64,000 nt of DNA. Source: Candidatus Thorarchaeota archaeon (lineage in GTDB: Archaea; Asgardarchaeota; Thorarchaeia; Thorarchaeales; Thorarchaeaceae). The position numbers were made by a program, and so were the translations under genes. Below the pieces are notes generated by a model. That model made no database searches and had not been told where the DNA came from. It saw nothing but the letters and a program-made list of their open reading frames with translations. The DNA lies in NCBI GenBank assembly GCA_019057475.1, contig DXJO01000028.1:1-64000 (forward strand). Reading direction: 5' to 3'. Positions 1 through 11,278 of this stretch are shown one piece after another (within the stretch, counting starts at the first letter, position 1; every line of letters begins with the position of its first letter).

Positions 1-10
1 TATAGGGGAT

Positions 11-322
11 ATGTGCCAGGGTGCTGTCTTTGAGACTTCTCTTAAACGAGCAAAGGAGTTAAAGAGGGCCGGAGTGGTTGAGATAATGGAGAGGATCCCC
101 GAGCCGGATAGACTCCCGGAAATTATCAAATTAAGGGAGCAGGGGTTAACTTATCGAGCTATCGGAGAAAAACTTGACCTCTCAAAAGTAGCTGTCTATA
201 AGCGGTTGAGGAAAGAAGGTCTGGCCGGAAGGGGTAGCCTCGTTAATCAGATAAGAGGTCTCCGGGAGAGGGTCGGCAGACTGGAAAAAGAGGTTAAGAG
301 GCTGATAAATGATCAGGAATAA
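11..322 (+). CDS. Small HTH DNA-binding protein, possibly 5'-incomplete
   Basis: About 103 aa, rich in Lys, Arg and Glu. Residues ~38-68 read as a helix-turn-helix of the resolvase/Hin type (LREQGLTYRAIGEKLDLSK, then VAVYKRLRKEG). The last ~25 residues form a Leu/Arg/Glu heptad-like helix (LRERVGRLEKEVKRL), a likely short coiled coil for dimerisation. The chosen ATG has a purine-rich AGGGGAT just before it, very close to the start codon, and no in-frame stop is visible in the ten bases upstream, so the gene may begin outside the window. It lies in the purine-biased accessory block at the left end. Likely role, by inference: a DNA-binding regulator or partitioning/recombination accessory of a mobile element. 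No specific family assignment is safe. Confidence 0.6.
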   Translation: MCQGAVFETSLKRAKELKRAGVVEIMERIPEPDRLPEIIKLREQGLTYRAIGEKLDLSKVAVYKRLRKEGLAGRGSLVNQIRGLRERVGRLEKEVKRLINDQE

Positions 323-482
323 CTTGGTTTTAATGCTAGAGATTCAATTAAGGAAAGGATTTGAGACATTTTTGTTCGTGAAAAAGGGGGATAATAAGGG
401 CCTAAAACGCCTCTTTCTCTGTTGGGAGTCGAGGATTGAGTAGTCTATTTTTCAATAATTGAGTAAAAGGGGGTGAAAAACA

Positions 483-938
483 ATGTCAAAGCGGTATCGT
501 AGTAGGGATAGTTACATATCGAAAGATCCGATCAAGAGGCAGCACTCCTTGGATAATCTTGTCCAGTATAGGGAAGGCAGGGCTGAAAGGGAGAGGGTCT
601 TGAGGGAGATAGGCTATTACATTGTTTGCCCTTACTGTAAAAGGTCGGTGGTGAGAAAGAACCTCAAGGCGATTGAGTCGCTTCTTCATTTCTCCAGGTG
701 CAGGGATTGTCAGCACTTTGAGAGGCTTCCTGAACCTAAAGATTTGATGTGGGATCACCAGGTTATAGAGATAGTCGCTCAATGCAAAGATGAGCTATAC
801 GGTGAGAAGCATAGGACTTTTTTCACAGAGGAGCAATTAGACAGGGATAATGCGTCTATCGTCAATGAGCTAGGCTGCACCTACTCGAAAGAGGAAAGAG
901 AGGAGTTAGTTTGTTGCTCGTTTGAGCCTAAGAAATGA
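483..938 (+). CDS. Zinc-ribbon-like hypothetical protein of the accessory block
   Basis: 151 aa. Start supported by a strong Shine-Dalgarno (AAGGGGGTG) about 8 bases before the ATG. Basic N-terminus, then a CPYCKRSVVRKN motif (~residues 51-62) and a CRDCQHF motif (~78-84), which together give a CxxC...CxxC zinc knuckle with a His between them. The C-terminal third is acidic and holds further Cys residues including a CC pair near the end. Such short zinc-finger proteins are common in archaeal and bacterial plasmids and viruses, but I cannot name a family. Its stop overlaps the first unit of the 10-bp-period repeat ladder that follows. Codon use is dominated by AGG/AGA arginine codons and the sense strand is purine-rich, like the other genes up to ~2.8 kb and unlike the genes to the right. 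Confidence 0.6.
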   Translation: MSKRYRSRDSYISKDPIKRQHSLDNLVQYREGRAERERVLREIGYYIVCPYCKRSVVRKNLKAIESLLHFSRCRDCQHFERLPEPKDLMWDHQVIEIVAQCKDELYGEKHRTFFTEEQLDRDNASIVNELGCTYSKEEREELVCCSFEPKK

Positions 939-1130
939 CTAGAAATGACCTGGTTTCGACTCAATAAATGCTAAGAAAAGCTAAGATTTTAACGGATAAT
1001 AACAGATATTTTCCGGAAAAAAGGAACTTGCTCTCGTGGGATTTGGCTCTGCGTTTGAGGCTGTCGTATGCTGACAAATGCTGATATTTGAGTTAACAAA
1101 AGTTAACTTTCTATGTTGAGAAAAGTTGAG
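931..1130. repeat. Five successive pairs of direct repeats, each with a 10-bp period
   Basis: Within 200 bp of non-coding sequence there are five pairs of short direct repeats, each pair repeating after exactly 10 bp: AGAAATGAC (931, 941), GCTAAGA (970, 980), ATGCTGA (1068, 1078), AGTTAAC (1091, 1101) and GTTGAG (1115, 1125). Repeat units differ between pairs but three of them have an AAAA spacer. One helical turn of spacing suggests protein binding on one face of the DNA, as in iterons or operator arrays. The gap 939-1620 has no supportable gene on either strand, so this could be a replication or control region of the element; that role is inference. Confidence 0.5.
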
Positions 1131-1252
1131 ATCTCAGGGGGGTAAATTTGAGGTCTAAGTCTTTGTTAAAATTAGGGTTTGGCCGGAGGAAACAGCCGAG
1201 TCCTCTTTTATTTGACCTGGAGGTAGGGGATAACTCAAGGGGGACTCCCCGA

Positions 1253-1280
1253 AGCCTTAAATGAGCCTTAAATGGCCTTA
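1253..1280. repeat. Perfect 11-bp tandem repeat AGCCTTAAATG x2 plus a partial third copy
   Basis: AGCCTTAAATG occurs at 1253-1263 and again at 1264-1274, followed by GCCTTA at 1275-1280. It lies in the same 680-bp gene-free interval as the 10-bp-period repeat ladder and may belong to the same control or replication region. Confidence 0.5.
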
Positions 1281-1364
1281 TTCTCTGAAGATAGTTACTA
1301 GAGAGGAGATAAGAGATAATTATAAGATTAGGGAGTTTATGATTCTGGGTTACATAATCAGTTA

Positions 1365-1567
1365 TTATCGGAACCAAGAATTTGAGTAGAAATAGAGGGT
1401 TGAAAGACAGTTATAATAAGGGTTTTAATGATTAAAGTTAGGCTCTTATCCTGGGTATCTATAAGGATCTTGGCTATCCTCTCATTATCGGCTGTAATAT
1501 GGTATAGACAGGGAATAGCTCAATTTAGGGTAGGTAGTTTGGTTAACATAATGTCTCTTATCGGAAC
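1365..1567. repeat. Repeated 10-mer TTATCGGAAC upstream of the sigma70-like promoter
   Basis: TTATCGGAAC occurs at 1365-1374 and 1558-1567, with the 7-base core TTATCGG also at 1485-1491. The last copy ends 15 bases before the -35-like hexamer, so these may be binding sites for a regulator of the promoter at 1583-1610. Between them I see no gene. Confidence 0.35.
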
Positions 1568-1582
1568 ATATCGTATTAGGTC

Positions 1583-1610
1583 TTGACAAATAATAATACG
1601 ATGTTATAAT
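1583..1610 (+). promoter_or_regulatory. Near-consensus bacterial sigma70-type promoter
   Basis: TTGACA at 1583-1588, a 16-bp spacer, then TATAAT at 1605-1610, both perfect matches to the bacterial -35 and -10 consensus. It sits 33 bases before the preferred start of the excisionase-like gene at 1643. This is unexpected next to an archaeal chromosome whose other promoters are TATA/BRE-like, and argues that the left block is of bacterial or bacteriophage/plasmid origin, or is a separate assembly piece. Confidence 0.6.
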
Positions 1611-1642
1611 GAGATAGAGAAATGAGAGAGGAGGTCTTAATA

Positions 1643-1825
1643 ATGGGAAAGCTGTTATCAGTCAAAGAGGTCGCTGGTATCCTGGGACTCCACGAGGCAG
1701 TTATCCGGCGTTATATTCGGAGTGGAGTCTTGTCTGCTGTTAGACTAGAGGGAGCATATCGGATTGATGAGAAAGACTTAAATAACTGGCTGGAAAAGAG
1801 AAAGACAGGCCAGGGAGAGAAATAA
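1643..1825 (+). CDS. Excisionase/MerR-like helix-turn-helix protein
   Basis: 60 aa if started at the ATG at 1643, which has a good Shine-Dalgarno (GAGAGGAGGT) 8 bases upstream; an earlier in-frame ATG at 1622 would overlap that signal. The sequence LLSVKEVAGILGLHEAVIRRYIRSGVL and then AVRLEGAYRIDEKDLNNWLE matches the winged-HTH 'excisionase family DNA-binding domain' pattern: helix-turn-helix, a beta wing, and the closing I-x-x-x-DL-x-x-WL signature. In mobile elements such proteins direct excision or act as small repressors. It is placed directly behind the sigma70-like promoter. I infer a Xis-like or regulatory role; no integrase is visible in the window. Confidence 0.75.
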   Translation: MGKLLSVKEVAGILGLHEAVIRRYIRSGVLSAVRLEGAYRIDEKDLNNWLEKRKTGQGEK

Positions 1826-1834
1826 AAATAAAAA

Positions 1835-1874
1835 GGGGGAGGCCCTTAACCGCTAGGCAAAGGAAAACCTCCCC
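1835..1874 (+). promoter_or_regulatory. Leader hairpin before the 1889 gene
   Basis: GGGGAGG (1836-1842) can pair with CCTCCCC (1868-1874) across a 25-base loop, in the 60-base gap between the excisionase-like gene and the next ORF. There is no T-run after it, so it resembles a leader structure or mRNA-processing element more than a terminator. Confidence 0.35.
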
Positions 1875-1888
1875 GAAGGGAGTCAACG

Positions 1889-2272
1889 ATGAAGTATTCC
1901 CCCTTCGTGCAAGAAGGTAGCAAAGAGGGAGAAAAGGTCAAGGACTGGGATACAATTATCCATATCCAGAAAGAAAAAAAGGAGAGATTCTCGGAGGACC
2001 TGAACAGGACTCTCAACGAATTGTTTGACCTCAACCTAGGCCAGAATAGAGCGAAGCGAGTCGGAGAGAAACGGGAAGCAAACGAAAAATACAATCTCAA
2101 ATACCAGGAGCTAAAGGGTCTTATCCGAGGGGTAATGAAAAGCCCGGGAATAGGGATCAAGGTCTATGATAAATTGAGCCGGTTATTTACCCAGGTACTG
2201 AAGCACCGGGCCAGCGTCCAGTATTTAGTGTTGAACGGTATTGTGGAGAAGGTAGAGAATGAAAGTCGCTAA
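1889..2272 (+). CDS. Charged helical hypothetical protein of the accessory block
   Basis: 127 aa, unrecognised. Start ATG preceded by AAGGGAG seven bases upstream. Very rich in Lys, Glu, Arg and Asn, predicted largely helical by composition, with no TM segment or Cys. The last 14 bases overlap the start of the PC4-like gene (ATG at 2259, TAA ending 2272), so the two are translationally coupled. The neighbour suggests a nucleic-acid-related job in the element, but nothing in the sequence proves it. Confidence 0.55.
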   Translation: MKYSPFVQEGSKEGEKVKDWDTIIHIQKEKKERFSEDLNRTLNELFDLNLGQNRAKRVGEKREANEKYNLKYQELKGLIRGVMKSPGIGIKVYDKLSRLFTQVLKHRASVQYLVLNGIVEKVENESR

Positions 2273-2492
2273 GAAGCAAGAAGAAATCGGAAGGGTTAAG
2301 CTCTCAGACTCTCAGGAGCTTGTTGTTTCAGTAGTGGATGATGAGAGGCTGGATCTTAGGCTTTGGGTCAAGACGGACAGCTATACCGGGCCTACCAAGA
2401 GGGGAGTAAGGTTTTATCTGTTCGACGAGATATGGGAGCGTTTTAAGGGTCTTATGGAGAAGGTTGATAAGGTCTATAATGACCTTGCCTAG
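2259..2492 (+). CDS. PC4/p15-like single-stranded-DNA-binding protein
   Basis: 77 aa. The pattern ELVVSVVDDERLDLRLWVK followed by TGPTKRGVRFYLFDEIWERF resembles the PC4 / transcriptional coactivator p15 fold: strands with a 'DLRxW' signature, a Pro-x-x-(K/R)-G turn, and then a closing amphipathic helix (here FDEIWERFKGLMEKVDK). PC4-like proteins bind single-stranded DNA and are frequent in phages, plasmids and some archaea. Coupled to the upstream helical ORF by a 14-base overlap. The call rests on motif pattern only; a different small beta-rich DNA-binding protein is possible. Confidence 0.6.
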   Translation: MKVAKKQEEIGRVKLSDSQELVVSVVDDERLDLRLWVKTDSYTGPTKRGVRFYLFDEIWERFKGLMEKVDKVYNDLA

Positions 2493-2625
2493 AGGATTTA
2501 AGAGAACTGGGATTTTCCTAGTTCGTTCTATCCGGGGGGGTTCTGGATCTCCTGGTCTTTCCTCCCCGGGTAGAGAATAGCTATTAGGCTCGGGGTTACT
2601 CCCTGGCCCCGGGCCAACCAGGGAG
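2493..2625 (+). promoter_or_regulatory. Structured leader with the ribosome-binding site in a hairpin
   Basis: This 133-base gap holds at least two GC-rich inverted repeats. One pairs CTCCCTGG (2599-2606) with CCAGGGAG (2618-2625), placing the only Shine-Dalgarno-like GGGAG inside a stem that ends exactly at the ATG at 2626. Another pairs CCGGGG near 2540 with CCCCGG near 2565. Sequestering the ribosome site would make translation of the next ORF conditional; this is inference from base pairing only. Confidence 0.4.
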
Positions 2626-2826
2626 ATGATAAGGGTGGAGGAAATCAAGAGACTAGAGGACTTTGAGAGGACTAGAGGAAAGCTGAGGCTGCCTGCCGAT
2701 ACGAAGCCTTGTATTGTTAAACTGCTGGAAGATCCCTCCGTGAGAGAGGCCGATAATGCCTTTGTAGTTGCGGTAGAGTTGCATAGGGTCGGGAGGACGA
2801 ACGTATCTGGAGAACTTATGCTCTGA
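2626..2826 (+). pseudogene. 5' fragment of an element gene, cut at the ~2.8-kb junction
   Basis: 66 codons remain. From about residue 19 the text KLRLPADTKPCIVKLLED and then NAFVVAVELHRVGRTN resembles the start of a C-terminal primase-associated helical domain found in plasmid/viral primases (Pro-x-Cys-Ile...LL...N-x-x-hydrophobic helix); this resemblance is weak. The frame stops abruptly after about 2800-2810, where another reading frame takes over as the 3' end of a SpoIIM-like membrane protein, so the final four or five residues (GELML) are probably not native. Either ATG 2626 or GTG 2635 could start it: the GGGAG at 2621-2625 gives a 9-base spacing only for GTG 2635. Confidence 0.45.
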
Positions 2827-2903
2827 TTGTGTTCTTCTTGCTGATTGCGGCGCTAATCGAATCCTTTGTCACTCCACTTGTTGTAATGATGGTCGGTGGA
2901 TAA
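2802..2903 (+). pseudogene. 3' end of a SpoIIM-like (DUF95) membrane protein
   Basis: In the frame ending at TAA 2901-2903 the sequence reads RIWRTYALIVFFLLIAAL and then IESFVTPLVVMMVGG. The hydrophobic run followed by (A/I)xxEAF(V/I)TP is characteristic of the last membrane helix of the SpoIIM/DUF95 family, whose members are usually ~180-330 aa. Only about 33 residues are present; upstream of ~2800 the DNA belongs to the purine-rich accessory block. So the gene is either interrupted by an inserted element or artificially joined in assembly. The left boundary given is approximate. Its stop overlaps the start of a small TM protein, showing it was the end of a genuine host operon. Confidence 0.55.
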
Positions 2904-3027
2904 AGGCGGAGTACGGATTTGGTTAAGGCTACAGAACCTATCTTCGACCGCCATGATACTGGCAGGCATAGGTTTGGCCATGATTGTGATACTGGTCATG
3001 GTGTTCCAGAGAAAGCGGCGCATGTAG
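2896..3027 (+). CDS. Small single-span membrane protein (43 aa)
   Basis: GTG at 2896 opens an ORF whose first 8 bases (GTGGATAA) overlap the SpoIIM-like stop; the same overlap octamer joins two hdr genes at 38294. The protein has a soluble N-terminal stretch (VDKGGVRIWLRLQNLSSTA), one strong TM helix (MILAGIGLAMIVILVMVF) and a basic tail QRKRRM. Orientation by the positive-inside rule puts the C-terminus in the cytoplasm. Coupling and the TM helix make it a plausible partner of the membrane protein it follows. Too short for family recognition. Confidence 0.5.
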   Translation: MDKGGVRIWLRLQNLSSTAMILAGIGLAMIVILVMVFQRKRRM

Positions 3028-3030
3028 TTG

Positions 3031-3120
3031 ATGAAAACGGGCCAAGTGCTCGATCTCCTCTCCTTTTTTGAAAGCCTTCTATCGACTCCGCGAGAAACGG
3101 ATGCACCCCCTCTAGTATAA
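3031..3120 (+). CDS. Possible 29-aa ORF at the operon end
   Basis: ATG three bases after the previous stop, reading MKTGQVLDLLSFFESLLST and then PRETDAPPLV to TAA at 3118-3120. The tight spacing favours coupling, but there is no ribosome-binding signal and no family, so it may be chance. Confidence 0.2.
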   Translation: MKTGQVLDLLSFFESLLSTPRETDAPPLV

Positions 3121-3193: not shown

Positions 3194-3297
3194 CTATCAA
3201 CACGCGCCGCGGATACGAGTTGGTATAATGGAGTTTGCTAATCGCGAGGCATGACTCCGACCTTGTTCAATCCACGGTGCGGAAGGGGACAGAACAA

Positions 3298-6200
3298 ATG
3301 CAACGGAATCAAACAAAACGCACGCTTATTTCTCTAGTTGCTATTGCGGTTTTTCTATTCTCAATGGTCTATGCAAGCAGCAATGCTACATTGCCCATTC
3401 ATCCAGTGAGTGACTCTGTTCTTGAGTTCACTTATGCACAGGATCCAGATCCGCAATATGAGCCTGAAGCAGGTACTCACGTCTGGTGGGACCAAAACAG
3501 CAACAGCACTAGCGATGAGTGGTCATGGGATCACAGAAACTGGCTATTCGGGCCGAGTCCTACGTTCGAGGTCTTCCACGAAGACGGCTCTCTGCTGACT
3601 GGAGATAGCTACGCAGAAATCGGTGAGGTCATACACTTCGTGGTGACTGTACCCAAGAATGTGTTCACTGAAGACGCAGATCTAGGACGTGTCAGCGTTC
3701 ATGGTTGGTACACGACCGCGGACTGGAACTTCACTGCAAATTTCAACATGGACTTTGACGCTAACCCCTACGCCTTCGACCGGTGGATGGCTGGAAGCTG
3801 GCAATACAACTCCACAGAGGAGTTTGGTCCGCCACAACCCAGCTTCTTGAACATAACTCCTGAACAGTGCTCAAACACAAGTGACGCTAGCAACTACTAT
3901 ATCGACTTCGCAGTATCATTCACTGGCGATGCACCTCAGGGTCTCTACCAGATTGATATGTCCGTGGAGGACACCAACGGGAACTGGATAGGTTCATACA
4001 ATTATGGTTCCGGCTGGGATTTCAAGGGCATAGCCGTCGGAATGCATGCCGACCTTGCATGGGCACACTCGTTCGGAGGGGGCTACACCCTTCAGAAGAT
4101 TGACCTGGAGGGCGACCCGCTCTATTCCGTGAGCAGAGGCATGGATTTCATCATGCGATTCAACATCAGTGGAGATGAGCCTGAATTTGTACGTCTGAGG
4201 TTCCATATCCCAAGTGGGATTGACGTGTGGGTCAACGAAACTGGCTGGCATGACGAACTTGTCACCAGCAACGGAGGGTGGCAGTTCGATGAGGTTCTTG
4301 AAACATACGTCTGGAATGACACAATCGAGGTTACGACCCTCGAACAAGTCTACGGCGAGTATCAACGACGTGAATGGGTCAACATTGGCACGAGCGAAGA
4401 GATCAATGTGACTCGACTCTGGGACTACTGGGACGACGAAATCGAGGAATGGGTCTACGAGATTGTGAACGAAACTTGGTGGATTGAGAAGGAGTTCATC
4501 TTTGAGTACAACGGAACTCACTTCGAAACTTACTATGGTTACACATACTGGGGCTACCCGTATGAGGAGTATATCCCTGGTACTTGGAATGAGGAGATAA
4601 CTGTCCTCGAACCAATCCCCGAAGATATGCCCATCTTTTACGAGCTCAACACTTCACAATGTTCTGCAGCAACAATCGGTCCTGAGTTTGTGGTCGAATT
4701 CATTGGTCACTTCACAGACGAAATGCCTGTTAGCAACATGTATCAGAATTTCATGTTTCAAGACGAGGTAATGGGGCCTGATAACTATCAATACTGGCCG
4801 GCTACTCATGGTGAGTATCCAAAGCAGACTCAGAGCGAGTACGAGATGGCGAAACAGATTGCTATCGAAACCCCTGTGACCATTGCCAAGCTACTCAGGG
4901 CTGATGGAACAGAACCCACTGGCTGGATGTTCCAGATTGACAAGGGCGACGACTTCATGATTAGCGGCAGGCTTCAAGGTGGCGGTTCAGTGGCTGACGA
5001 TATAGATGCCTCGCAGCTCGCTCTTAACGCGTACAGTGGTTACTGGACTGAGGATGAGTGGGGCTGGTCTGAGCTCACCTACGAAGTTTCTATTGATATG
5101 GACGGCATTCCAACATTTAGAGCATTCAACAGGACTGAGAAGAATAACTACACCCACGGTGTTTATGAGGACTGGATCCTTACCAACAGCACTGGCTGGT
5201 TCTATGCCTACAACGAAACCACTGGCATGTGGGATTGGGCATATGGCAATTACACGGATTGGCAATGGGTCGAGGTCGAAGGTTGGCACTGGGCTTGGTG
5301 GTATTACAACCATCTCACTGGTGAATGGCAAGAGAAGTACATTCCACACAGAAGTGCTGAAACTGTGATTCCTGCAGACTTCTGCACTATCAGTGGCTTC
5401 ACGTCATTGGTAGATGAAGGGGACCTTTATGTCACGTTCCTTGTCAACATGACCGAGAGCGTGCCTGACACCAACTATTGGTGGGAATTCGCTTTCATGA
5501 ACAACACTTGGTATCAGGACTACTCCAGCGAGTACGGCGAGCATGAGGTCCTGAGCTGGGAGCGCGAGTGGGTCTATAGCTTTGACTACCTTGGCGACAA
5601 GGTCTACATGGAACCATTTGTCAAGAATCAGCTCGTATACCAGTTCACCAACGGTTCACTCAGCTCCGATTACATGATTGGATTTGAGAGTCCCTATATT
5701 GTTCTTGGTGACGAGGAACTGCCCATCAAGGTCCGAGAGAACTACGATCCATGGTCGAGTACTACCTGGACTGAGATGTTCTTCTATGATCACTGGGATC
5801 CTGGGACTGGCAATGACTACTACTACTATGAGTTGCTGAATGATACGAAGATCTTGGTCACATACACCGATACGGTATACATCTACAATGTAACAACCAC
5901 CACAGGCGATTCATTCCTCACAGCCATGGAGTGGGATTGGGGCTACCAATCCTATGGAACTCACCACGACTACTGGGTTGACCTGAATGGGTCCGTGCAT
6001 CAAGGTGGAATAGAGTATCAGAGATGGAACCTTCTTGACTTCGAGTTCCACGACAAGGTCGAGATCTCATATCATGATGAGGGTTGGTTCGTCCGATACG
6101 GCCCTACTGACAACATAATGCTGATCAGTAACTTTTGGTGGGAGAGCCTGGATAACACCTACTACATGACTAGCTTGGACGGCAATCTCTACCAAGTAAT

Positions 6201-9108
6201 CTACAACGAGATGTATGGGCACAATGAGGCCTTCATCGACGGATTTTGGCAGGCAGTGGGTTGGTTTGAGCATTACTACACAGCTGAATATGACGGTCAT
6301 GATGTGATGCTTGTCACGCATAACACGCATCGCAGCTGGTATCATGAGAATGGTGCCGAGCTGGAGATGCCATACCCAGGTGCAAACGCTGAGTGGCACG
6401 ACGAGCTGAACAGGATTCAGAGTGATGGCGGAAAGGTACCAACTACCAAGTCACTTGTCTACGACGGCGTAACCTATCCAGTGTACAACACCACAGTGGA
6501 TGACTGCTATGTTGACATTGAAGGCACAACGTACTCCATCAACCACACACTCATGTTCCACACTGTGGCAAATGGCACCGATATCTGGTTGGAGGACTCG
6601 ACACCCGTCGGCTATCAGGCTGACGTCGGCACATTCGACAACAGTCTTGCATTCACCAATGTGGAACCCGTTCAGTACAACACTGACGATATGTGGGGTT
6701 GGCCACGCATGGACTGGGATAATGGCTACTACGTAGTCGATCTGTTCAACGGCACTACCTGGATTGCCAACTACACGAATGTCATGCTCCTATTCAAGTA
6801 TGATCTCGAAGGTGAGATCTTCTACTCTATGCAGGAGTGGCCATACTGGCACGAGCTGGGCAACGAGTCATGGTACTCGTACGTTGCCATCAACGGTACA
6901 GAGATTGAGGTACTAAGCCCAGATCCTCTTCCAAAGATGGCCTCCCATCTAGTATACACCTACTTCAATGGAAGCCATGATGTCTACGACTTCATGAGTG
7001 GGACTTATGCCATCCATTCGTGGGGCCCTTCGATTTGGGCGTTCAAGATACACAACGCTACATACAGCGGCGACCTGTTCTTGAACATGCAAGGTGGTGG
7101 CAGGGAGCTCTATGTCTTTGACTACCTTGGCACTCCTGTGTTGGCAACCCCGTCCTATGAGAGCATCCACAGATATCGTTTGAGGTGGGGTCACGCCCTG
7201 ATCTACGGGCCTACACCTATCGAGAGCTCGGTGCACAGGAACTTCTACGATCTTGTCATCGGAGTCCCCGAGTGGGGCATGTGGGGCATGCAGAATTGGG
7301 CGACCAACCCGGACAACGGGGCACTCGACCTAGATGGCAACCTCGACACCACTGATGACCAATACTTCGTACAAGAGGAGTATTCATCGATTGACAGCTG
7401 GACACACACCTGGGAAGCCCTATGGACCAACATCAACTGGGATCCCAACGCAACAGCGTGGGGCGATGAAATGAATATCCACTCTTGGATGGGTGTTGAT
7501 TCATTCACATGGACCTACGAGTGGAGTCAGTCCTTCGATTGGTACTTTGCCGGCAACATGAGCGCTTTGACTACTGGTCAAATGGATGCTGTGAGGGACA
7601 TTCTTCTGACGGAGGATGAAGAACCTCGACCAGGTTACTGGGACATCGCTTGGATGGCTCGAGACGTCACCTGGGAGGACATACTCGCAGATGCTGAGGC
7701 GAACGGTTGGGACTGGATAACCTCAAACGAGCAGACCTGGACTTGGCTTAGCTTCGGTGTTGGTCAGAACTATGGAACTACCGTACTGCAGGATGAAGTA
7801 GAGCACTGGCTTAACATTGGCATGCACTATGAGTTCAGCGGCCTTATGATCTGGGAAGACCTCAATGACGATGGTACGATGGGTGTTGACCTTTTCGATC
7901 CATCAGGCAGCGAACTTTCTCACTATTTGATGCCGGACTCTGTGGACAGCGTGTCCTTTGTCACTCCAGGCATGGCCTTTGGTGATTCCAACTCATCTGG
8001 ATGGATGAGTGTTGATATCACTGATGAAGTGACCTGGGGCGTGACGTTCCTTGGTGTCAACGGAACTGCCTTCCCATTCACCGAATGGGGATACTGGGGT
8101 TGGTACGATGGTGTCAATACTGGCTCGGACATGAGGACATTCGATGAGCGCCCGACTAAGGTGCGAATCGATGAGCTCTCATTCCTTGTGCACTTCCAAG
8201 GATACATCGATGAATCTGGTGAAACGTTGAATAACTACGCAGAAGTTAAGGTGGACAACTACGTCGGCAACTGGGATGTCGATATGATTGGCGGTCGCAG
8301 CAATCTCGAGAACAAGTCACTTGCGTTGAACTACTTCGCTGATGTAAACGTGCAGGACTTCGCTTTCAAGGCGAACGGCAATTTCATGTCTGGTGAGGAA
8401 ACAGTAAGCGCTGATACCTTTGCGTTTGAAACTGCTGGAGTCCAATTTGCTGAGATGATCATGGGTGGTGTCACCTATGACTGGAGCAAGAACACATCTG
8501 CTCCGTACGACGTCTTGAGCTACACTACGCCAGTAGGTACATTCCGTGCGGCCTTTGAGTCTGATAGTGGCCAGTCCGCTACTGCTTGGAGCTTCAGCTC
8601 CACCATGTTCTACGTGACCATAGGCTTCCCAGAATGGGACGGTTACAGCGTATATCAAGACCCGGTCTTCGTTAGTTACATCTCTGCGCACGGCACGGAG
8701 AGTGTTCCTGGAAAAGTCGAGTTTGGCGCTTTCAGCATCGGTCCAACGATCCCACACGCCACTGACACTGTGCAAGTGGGGGTTGATATCTACGCTGACG
8801 TGCAGGTGAACAGCGCTGACCTACTCTACGGCACAGATGGAGGGAACCTTGACCAATCGACCCCGATGTGGCAGGAAACTGACACCAGATGGGTTGGCAA
8901 CATCCCACCATACGACGATGGTGTGCAGGTCTTCTACAAGATGGTCGTGCACACTGACTACGGTGACTTTGAGTCACCATTAGGCTCCTACATCGTTGGA
9001 CAAGGCATTGTGGGTCCAGATGGTGGACTCGATATGATAGTCCTCCTTGGAGGATTTGCAGTCCTTGTGATTCTTGTTGTTGTTCTGGCAAGAAGACGGC
9101 GACGATAG
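3298..9108 (+). CDS. Giant Trp/Tyr-rich cell-surface protein with C-terminal anchor
   Basis: 1936 aa when started at ATG 3298, which follows GGAAGGGGACA and opens a classic signal peptide (MQRNQTKRTLISLVAIAVF, cleavage after SMVYASS or nearby); a longer TTG start at 3235 is less likely. The mature chain is extraordinarily rich in Trp, Tyr, Asp, Asn and Gly, with dozens of N-x-S/T sequons, and looks beta-rich. At least three regions share a Cys plus 'F.V.F' pattern (near residues ~190-330, ~455-600 and ~700-800), suggesting divergent internal repeats of about 250-300 aa. Ca-binding-like loops appear (DLDGNLDTTDD; DLNDDGTMGVD). It ends with one TM helix (MIVLLGGFAVLVILVVVLA) and RRRRR, the usual archaeal membrane anchor. 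I infer a surface-layer or extracellular scaffold or adhesin; no enzyme motif is seen. A clean hairpin terminator follows, so it is transcribed alone. Confidence 0.85.
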   Translation: MQRNQTKRTLISLVAIAVFLFSMVYASSNATLPIHPVSDSVLEFTYAQDPDPQYEPEAGTHVWWDQNSNSTSDEWSWDHRNWLFGPSPTFEVFHEDGSLLTGDSYAEIGEVIHFVVTVPKNVFTEDADLGRVSVHGWYTTADWNFTANFNMDFDANPYAFDRWMAGSWQYNSTEEFGPPQPSFLNITPEQCSNTSDASNYYIDFAVSFTGDAPQGLYQIDMSVEDTNGNWIGSYNYGSGWDFKGIAVGMHADLAWAHSFGGGYTLQKIDLEGDPLYSVSRGMDFIMRFNISGDEPEFVRLRFHIPSGIDVWVNETGWHDELVTSNGGWQFDEVLETYVWNDTIEVTTLEQVYGEYQRREWVNIGTSEEINVTRLWDYWDDEIEEWVYEIVNETWWIEKEFIFEYNGTHFETYYGYTYWGYPYEEYIPGTWNEEITVLEPIPEDMPIFYELNTSQCSAATIGPEFVVEFIGHFTDEMPVSNMYQNFMFQDEVMGPDNYQYWPATHGEYPKQTQSEYEMAKQIAIETPVTIAKLLRADGTEPTGWMFQIDKGDDFMISGRLQGGGSVADDIDASQLALNAYSGYWTEDEWGWSELTYEVSIDMDGIPTFRAFNRTEKNNYTHGVYEDWILTNSTGWFYAYNETTGMWDWAYGNYTDWQWVEVEGWHWAWWYYNHLTGEWQEKYIPHRSAETVIPADFCTISGFTSLVDEGDLYVTFLVNMTESVPDTNYWWEFAFMNNTWYQDYSSEYGEHEVLSWEREWVYSFDYLGDKVYMEPFVKNQLVYQFTNGSLSSDYMIGFESPYIVLGDEELPIKVRENYDPWSSTTWTEMFFYDHWDPGTGNDYYYYELLNDTKILVTYTDTVYIYNVTTTTGDSFLTAMEWDWGYQSYGTHHDYWVDLNGSVHQGGIEYQRWNLLDFEFHDKVEISYHDEGWFVRYGPTDNIMLISNFWWESLDNTYYMTSLDGNLYQVIYNEMYGHNEAFIDGFWQAVGWFEHYYTAEYDGHDVMLVTHNTHRSWYHENGAELEMPYPGANAEWHDELNRIQSDGGKVPTTKSLVYDGVTYPVYNTTVDDCYVDIEGTTYSINHTLMFHTVANGTDIWLEDSTPVGYQADVGTFDNSLAFTNVEPVQYNTDDMWGWPRMDWDNGYYVVDLFNGTTWIANYTNVMLLFKYDLEGEIFYSMQEWPYWHELGNESWYSYVAINGTEIEVLSPDPLPKMASHLVYTYFNGSHDVYDFMSGTYAIHSWGPSIWAFKIHNATYSGDLFLNMQGGGRELYVFDYLGTPVLATPSYESIHRYRLRWGHALIYGPTPIESSVHRNFYDLVIGVPEWGMWGMQNWATNPDNGALDLDGNLDTTDDQYFVQEEYSSIDSWTHTWEALWTNINWDPNATAWGDEMNIHSWMGVDSFTWTYEWSQSFDWYFAGNMSALTTGQMDAVRDILLTEDEEPRPGYWDIAWMARDVTWEDILADAEANGWDWITSNEQTWTWLSFGVGQNYGTTVLQDEVEHWLNIGMHYEFSGLMIWEDLNDDGTMGVDLFDPSGSELSHYLMPDSVDSVSFVTPGMAFGDSNSSGWMSVDITDEVTWGVTFLGVNGTAFPFTEWGYWGWYDGVNTGSDMRTFDERPTKVRIDELSFLVHFQGYIDESGETLNNYAEVKVDNYVGNWDVDMIGGRSNLENKSLALNYFADVNVQDFAFKANGNFMSGEETVSADTFAFETAGVQFAEMIMGGVTYDWSKNTSAPYDVLSYTTPVGTFRAAFESDSGQSATAWSFSSTMFYVTIGFPEWDGYSVYQDPVFVSYISAHGTESVPGKVEFGAFSIGPTIPHATDTVQVGVDIYADVQVNSADLLYGTDGGNLDQSTPMWQETDTRWVGNIPPYDDGVQVFYKMVVHTDYGDFESPLGSYIVGQGIVGPDGGLDMIVLLGGFAVLVILVVVLARRRRR

Positions 9109-10118: not shown

Positions 10119-10988
10119 TTGAGAACATGTGCAAAGTGTGGAAGAGCAAATGATGTACTACGGAAGCACTGCACTCGATGCGGAGCCTCTCTCCTGAAAG
10201 CGGCAGAGGACTCGAAACCATCTGCGTCTATCCCCAAATCAGGAAGAGTAGTCACTGGACCTACCCTTGAGGAAGTCGAGGAACCAGAAGAGGTCGTGAG
10301 TCCAGAGCCAGTGCAGGTTGATTACGAAGAGGGAACGGAAGTAGTAAAACAGATACTTGAGAGGGTCAAAGCAGCTGAAACTCGTACAACGGGCGAAGAG
10401 GCTGCATCGCAGCCAGAAACTGATGTTGAGGTTCTAGAAGAAGAACCCCCAGAGGAGATGGCTGAACCGATGATTCCCGAGGAACCTACGGCTGAAGCTG
10501 AAATACCACGTGACGAGCCAACAGCCCCCCCACCTGAGGAGATGCGTGGACAAGAACCCGCTCCCGTAGCTCCCCCTTCGATGGTTTCCGCGGCTGTTGA
10601 GGACCACCTTCGAGACGAGAAGATCAGGAATCTAGAATCCAACATTAAGGCCTACAATGTTGAACGTGCGCAGCTACAGTCCGAGTTGGACAAGTTGTGC
10701 TCTCGTCTTGACGAAGGAGTCGAACGTTACCGCACCGTTGCTGAAACCAAACGAACCCGTGCTGAAAGGATAGAACGTGAGTTGAGTCTTGCGAAGAAAG
10801 AGTACAATGATGCTAACAAGGAGTACAAGAACGCAGAAAACCGCAGGAACAAGGAATTGTCAAATGCCGAGAAACGGATTCGTGACATGGATAAGCGAGT
10901 CAAGAAGGCTCAGGATGCAAGAGATAAACGGCTTCGGGATCTGGAAAAAGAGCGGTTGAAGCGCGAAGAAGAAGCAAAGAAAGGCTAG
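10119..10988 (+). CDS. Zinc-ribbon, acidic-linker, coiled-coil protein
   Basis: 289 aa from a TTG start; the Shine-Dalgarno AAAGGAG ten bases upstream decides it, since the nearby ATG is out of frame. Residues 4-21 form a rubredoxin-like zinc ribbon (CAKCGRAN...CTRCGASLL). Residues ~35-155 are a low-complexity Pro/Glu-rich linker with many EEP/PEE runs. From ~165 to the end is a long highly charged coiled coil (ERAQLQSELDKLCSRL through repeated KE/ER heptads). This three-part layout (ribbon, disordered acidic linker, coiled coil) is common among Asgard and other archaeal proteins of unknown role, perhaps scaffolds. No membrane segment. Confidence 0.7.
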   Translation: MRTCAKCGRANDVLRKHCTRCGASLLKAAEDSKPSASIPKSGRVVTGPTLEEVEEPEEVVSPEPVQVDYEEGTEVVKQILERVKAAETRTTGEEAASQPETDVEVLEEEPPEEMAEPMIPEEPTAEAEIPRDEPTAPPPEEMRGQEPAPVAPPSMVSAAVEDHLRDEKIRNLESNIKAYNVERAQLQSELDKLCSRLDEGVERYRTVAETKRTRAERIERELSLAKKEYNDANKEYKNAENRRNKELSNAEKRIRDMDKRVKKAQDARDKRLRDLEKERLKREEEAKKG

Positions 10989-11278
10989 GCAATTAGGCCA
11001 TACTATTGGGTGGATGTAGACTTACCAGTGGGTCAAACAGCACAACACCCTAGATGACTGGATATTGCTCGGTGATATATCTCATAAAAGAATAGAGGCA
11101 GGTGGCTGTCATGCCTTCAACCATACAGCTCGGGAGGTAGACCCCTATTACTCCGTCTAATACTCCTGAAAACACAACCTCGAATCTCGAGACTCAGAAT
11201 CTCAATGCCCGAGAAGCAACGTGAGCGTTTTCTTTTTCTCACTAGATCGCCTGACAGAATCTGTATTAGATTCAAGTA
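10989..11278. other. Intergenic stretch without recognisable features
   Basis: Between the coiled-coil gene and the minus-strand terminator. I found no ORF with coding character, no repeat array and no convincing RNA fold. Confidence 0.4.

Follow-up and report, generated by a model that had tools for sequence, protein, structure and literature searches.

Chimeric contigs that arise by misassembly are an accepted but fairly rare class of error in metagenome assemblies (PMC8201837). In one short-read benchmark, 2.63 chimeric contigs per genome were produced by SPAdes and 22.15 by megahit (PMC11261854). The DNA described here (the window) is a stretch of 64,000 nucleotides from a Candidatus Thorarchaeota assembly. 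It comprises bases 1-64000 of contig C8 (98,270 bp), and base 1 of the window is the first base of the contig. The assembly totals 3.34 Mb in 56 contigs and is 96.4% complete and 2.6% contaminated; archaeal RNase P RNA is found on another of its contigs (C42), and the assembly is therefore archaeal. The very start of C8 (bases 1-2795) is a block of foreign DNA, which is followed by archaeal genes. An earlier, sequence-only reading of the window had noted that the sequence switches near 2800 into a SpoIIM-like gene, and had proposed either that a mobile element is inserted in this gene or that two unrelated pieces were joined. Its description of the switch is accurate. What it describes is most probably an assembly artefact and not a genuine feature of the genome.

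The joint at 2795/2796 and the native gene order

To the right of the joint, the last 36 codons and the stop codon (2901-2903) of a gene encoding a SpoIIM-domain membrane protein are present (bases 2796-2903, plus strand); they correspond to residues 874-909 of a 909-aa protein. The gene itself is found complete and uninterrupted on contig C47 (102,027 bp) of the same assembly, which is where a search for its 5' part, as the sequence-only reading had advised, leads. The full-length protein matches the Pfam family SpoIIM (PF01944) at its C-terminus, over residues 801-901 (E 1.7e-14; 54.5 bits against a cut-off of 26.9). The guess that the gene is SpoIIM-like was thus correct. The count of about 33 codons was slightly too low.

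When C8 is aligned with the intact C47 gene in register, the switch falls exactly at 2795/2796, at a single base and without a gap. Bases 2796-2842 are identical to C47 at 47 of 47 positions, and bases 2796-2895 at 97 of 100. Left of the joint, identity falls to chance level: 12/50 for 2746-2795, and 25/100, 26/100 and 28/100 further left. It had been considered that a continuous SpoIIM frame might reappear once a sequencing error was corrected; this is ruled out by the lack of homology to the left of 2796. The host gene and a foreign replication-type gene are both broken mid-frame at the same base. The four bases GACG at 2796-2799 (plus strand) can be assigned to either side when the sequences of C8, C47 and a congener (G001) are compared, and are a putative microhomology of about 4 bp. 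They were perhaps common to both parent sequences; on the foreign side this is suggested by a threonine which aligns with the related protein of a phage contig, L040. No end-type repeat, as expected of an element terminus, is seen at the joint.

The last 263 bases of C47 overlap with bases 2796-3058 of the window (plus strand). The overlap is gap-free and 90% identical. Its 27 mismatches lie mostly in 2904-3058 (23 mismatches); the first 100 bases have 3. The two contigs differ by 10% in the overlap (about 3% in coding and about 15% in intergenic sequence) and therefore seemingly come from different strains. Compared with G001, both have lost the same internal stretch of about 360 bp, and they are therefore alleles of one locus. 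One SpoIIM-domain gene and one downstream S-layer-like gene were found in the assembly, split between C47 and C8. A second copy of the 5' part of the SpoIIM-domain gene was not found in the assembly; only the intact gene on C47 is present.

C47 and C8 from base 2796 together tile one continuous stretch of a single G001 contig (C133), which contains, uninterrupted, the counterparts of the last 7 kb of C47 and of the part of C8 between 2796 and a point past 9.7 kb. In six relatives (G001, G007, G009, G011, G015 and G020), a counterpart or paralog of the S-layer-like gene lies 205-688 bp downstream of the SpoIIM-domain gene, and no foreign DNA is found between the two. Small genes directly upstream of a naturally short SpoIIM fragment, an arrangement which would have spoken for a native origin of the block, were looked for in the relatives and not found. 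Taken together, the overlap with C47, the single gene copies and the intact order in relatives establish the native order, in which C8 from base 2796 onward comes after C47 and bases 1-2795 have no place. In two congeners, the contigs end inside the SpoIIM-domain gene (G004 C110 and G006 C348); the locus therefore seems to be hard to assemble.

Between the SpoIIM-domain and S-layer-like genes (window 2896-3058) lies the 3' end of a gene for a small secreted-type protein (2932-3027, plus strand), left by the deletion common to C8 and C47. Only the membrane anchor, ending in VFQRKRRM, is kept here. The G001 counterpart, a 208-aa ORF (L009 1043-1669), combines a Pro/Thr/Glu linker with a membrane anchor that has the same VFQRKRRM end. 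The S-layer-like gene (3235-9108, plus strand), which lies downstream of the SpoIIM-domain gene in relatives, encodes a giant membrane-anchored protein of 1957 aa. It is rich in Trp, Tyr and Asp and has a C-terminal membrane anchor and an RRRRR tail; it has no Pfam match. Some relatives, G015 and G013 for example, have paralogs close to it. Further downstream, a strong AT skew (0.296) at 10-11 kb coincides with a gene at 10119-10989; by eye, its product has a zinc-ribbon-like part and a long acidic, coiled-coil-like part.

Genes and composition of bases 1-2795

The block is a run of small genes, all on one strand (plus). The first encodes a helix-turn-helix (HTH) protein of 106 aa (2-322), the 5' end of which is cut by the contig start; it matches Pfam HTH_23 (E 1.1e-5) and the DNA-binding protein family phrog_664 (E 9e-6). 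Next is a 151-aa protein (483-938) with zinc-ribbon-like cysteines (CPYC...CRDC). A perfect sigma-70 consensus promoter, TTGACA-16-TATAAT, is present at 1583-1610 (12/12 matches), so that the bacterial-type promoter reported from the sequence is borne out. It lies upstream of a gene encoding a 60-aa excisionase-family DNA-binding protein (1643-1825; ATG at 1643 after AGGAGG, longest ORF from 1622). This protein matches Pfam HTH_17 (E 2.4e-14), the excisionase/regulator family phrog_66 (E 1.7e-11) and TIGR01764 excise (41.2 bits, above the cut-off of 28.8). It is followed by genes for a 127-aa protein (1889-2272) and a 77-aa protein (2259-2492), which overlap. No relatives of the 151-, 127- and 77-aa proteins were found in the collections searched; the last matches Pfam PC4 only at E 0.12. 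Profile searches of the ORFs in bases 1-2795 found no integrase or transposase; the far end of the block lies beyond the contig start, where such a gene could be sited.

The last gene of the block encodes the N-terminal 53-54 codons of a phage or plasmid replication-type protein (2635-2796, plus strand). It is broken at the joint, in agreement with the earlier observation that the element's own ORF is truncated; the break lies at about 2796-2799. The start is most likely GTG 2635, because the alignment with the L040 protein suggests so. The two proteins are 57% identical over 53 aa (L040:1301-1459). The L040 protein is full-length at 220 aa and matches the replication initiation protein family phrog_19658 (E 2.9e-6); judged by its length, the ORF of the block stops about a quarter of the way into the gene. 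The foreign gene continues uninterrupted only in this distant relative. By eye, the GC-rich leader upstream of the replication-type gene is similar in the block and in L040. The broken ORF can be read on to 2826, with a match to residue 63; this reading was rejected, as C8 beyond the joint has the same sequence as chromosomal C47.

In L040 (phage contig IMGVR_UViG_3300030414_000214; 1-1960), the gene for capsid protein E is directly followed by that for the replication-type protein. The latter has a winged helix and a weak match to PriCT_1 (E 0.077). It has no relatives in the phage, plasmid and species-genome collections searched. For the block proteins as a whole, searches of viral contigs, species genomes, phages and plasmids gave only one real relative, on L040, and two short HTH matches of 28 aa (L038 and L039). 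The exact 23-mer left of the joint is absent from the viral contigs searched.

The block has no DNA matches elsewhere in its own assembly or in 38 related genomes. A comparison of tetranucleotide use with the rest of the assembly, also proposed from the sequence alone, puts it first among 346 windows of equal size: its deviation is 1.90, for a mean of 0.78 (s.d. 0.17). Its tetranucleotide profile correlates with that of the L040 phage contig (r 0.66); there is no such correlation with the host DNA next to it (r -0.29). Several features described in the sequence-only reading hold on counting. AGG makes up 50% of the arginine codons of the block and 20% of those of host ORFs, and the purine fraction of the sense strand is 0.592, compared with 0.531 +/- 0.034 in host ORFs. 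The claim of strong Shine-Dalgarno sites holds only in part: AGGAGG precedes ATG 1643, the other sites are of moderate strength, and such motifs also occur in roughly one in two host ORFs. The two sides of the joint thus differ in genomic origin, as seen in the lack of matches, the composition, the promoter and the gene order. From its genes and composition, the block is best read as a probable piece of a bacterial phage or phage-like plasmid.

Of all 56 contig starts, only that of C8 has a strong compositional deviation with no native explanation. The starts of C11 and C42 also have a deviant composition. They were rejected as further chimeras; they encode long, repetitive, Asn/Thr-rich secreted-type proteins, unlike bases 1-2795. 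C32 was considered as the source of the block and rejected: it carries no relatives of the block genes despite a compositional correlation of r 0.52. This contig (L073; 19,972 bp) is AT-richer and carries transposase (DDE) fragments, a Dam-like methyltransferase, a restriction-methylation-type protein of 1304 aa and other defence-type genes. Judged by eye, it looks like a defence island.

Origin of the joint

Bases 1-2795 have very probably been joined by mistake to archaeal DNA, at the left end of a contig whose true left neighbour is the SpoIIM-domain gene on C47. The block is situated at a contig end and stops mid-gene where the host gene breaks, and the uninterrupted site is present on C47; a chimeric join would look like this. 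This is the second of the two explanations offered from the sequence alone, and it agrees with the intact 5' part on C47, with the overlap from 2796 and with the gene order in six relatives: in C47 and in these six, the native neighbour of the host side is present and the joint is not. A real insertion, in which the C8 strain carries in the 3' end of the gene a mobile element that lacks its left half only through the contig end, is improbable. The excisionase-family and phage-like genes of the block would suit it, and C47 and C8 seemingly represent different strains, so that the gene could be interrupted in just one of them. However, an integrating element ends at its own terminus, with its genes complete. 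Here the block stops not at an element end but within its own replication-type gene, which is cut mid-frame after about a quarter of its length. Moreover, the assembly yielded no further copy of the 5' part of the host gene, such a block is found in none of the 38 relatives, and its promoter is of the bacterial type. The proposal of a mobile element inserted in the SpoIIM gene is thus unsupported; the join is strongly favoured over it, as the host-gene part that C8 lacks is preserved intact at the end of C47.

Two genes broken at one point with few shared bases could also result from end joining in the archaeon, if a fragment of viral or plasmid DNA had been captured in one lineage in place of the 5' part of the gene. 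Such an illegitimate recombination is very doubtful. It would require a conserved gene to have been mostly lost in exactly the strain whose other half falls on C47; furthermore, the position of the block coincides exactly with a contig end, and its foreign composition shows no amelioration. That the gene is naturally short or frameshifted, and that the small genes are its native neighbours, has a negligible probability, as the gene is full-length in relatives, which never carry the small genes, and identity left of 2796 is at chance level. Even taken together, insertion and end joining as rare real events in one strain are unlikely. It is hard to credit that the archaeal strain carries bacterial-phage-like DNA, captured by insertion or end joining, in a cell-surface gene cluster, which would be a recent uptake between domains.

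For the mistaken join, we infer that it was made during library preparation or assembly and not in a living cell. Two strains would coexist in the sample, with about 3% coding and about 15% intergenic divergence. The assembly graph probably broke in the diverged intergenic stretch at 2843-3058, where C47 stops; C8 would have extended leftward to 2796 and then run into foreign sequence via a few shared bases. The source of the error might be a chimeric read or an extension of a tip by the assembler. A k-mer assembler would normally require a longer shared sequence than the putative 4 bp or so at this joint, and the join therefore presupposes a chimeric read or a step of gap closing.

C8 should be trimmed of bases 1-2795 before claims about mobile elements or inter-domain transfer are made for this genome. 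Otherwise, the excisionase-like gene, the consensus promoter and the phage replication gene would be miscredited to an archaeal genome as evidence of such elements or transfer. A likely true contig order is also gained: C47, then C8 from base 2796.

Comparison with known systems

Integrative elements with excisionase-family proteins (HTH_17/TIGR01764) resemble the block in having a small HTH_17 protein among small genes. They differ from it in that no integrase, attachment site or element end was found in the window. The phage contig IMGVR_UViG_3300030414_000214 (L040/L042) is the sole source in which a relative of the broken gene was found, and its tetranucleotide use is similar to that of the block. 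It also encodes a major capsid protein E and an integrase; the other genes of the block are absent from the stretch of it that was examined. The locus is like inter-genome misassemblies in metagenome-assembled genomes (PMC8201837, PMC11261854). As in these, two sequences of different origin are joined abruptly at a contig end, and the true neighbour, judged here from assembled sequence, lies on another contig of the same bin.
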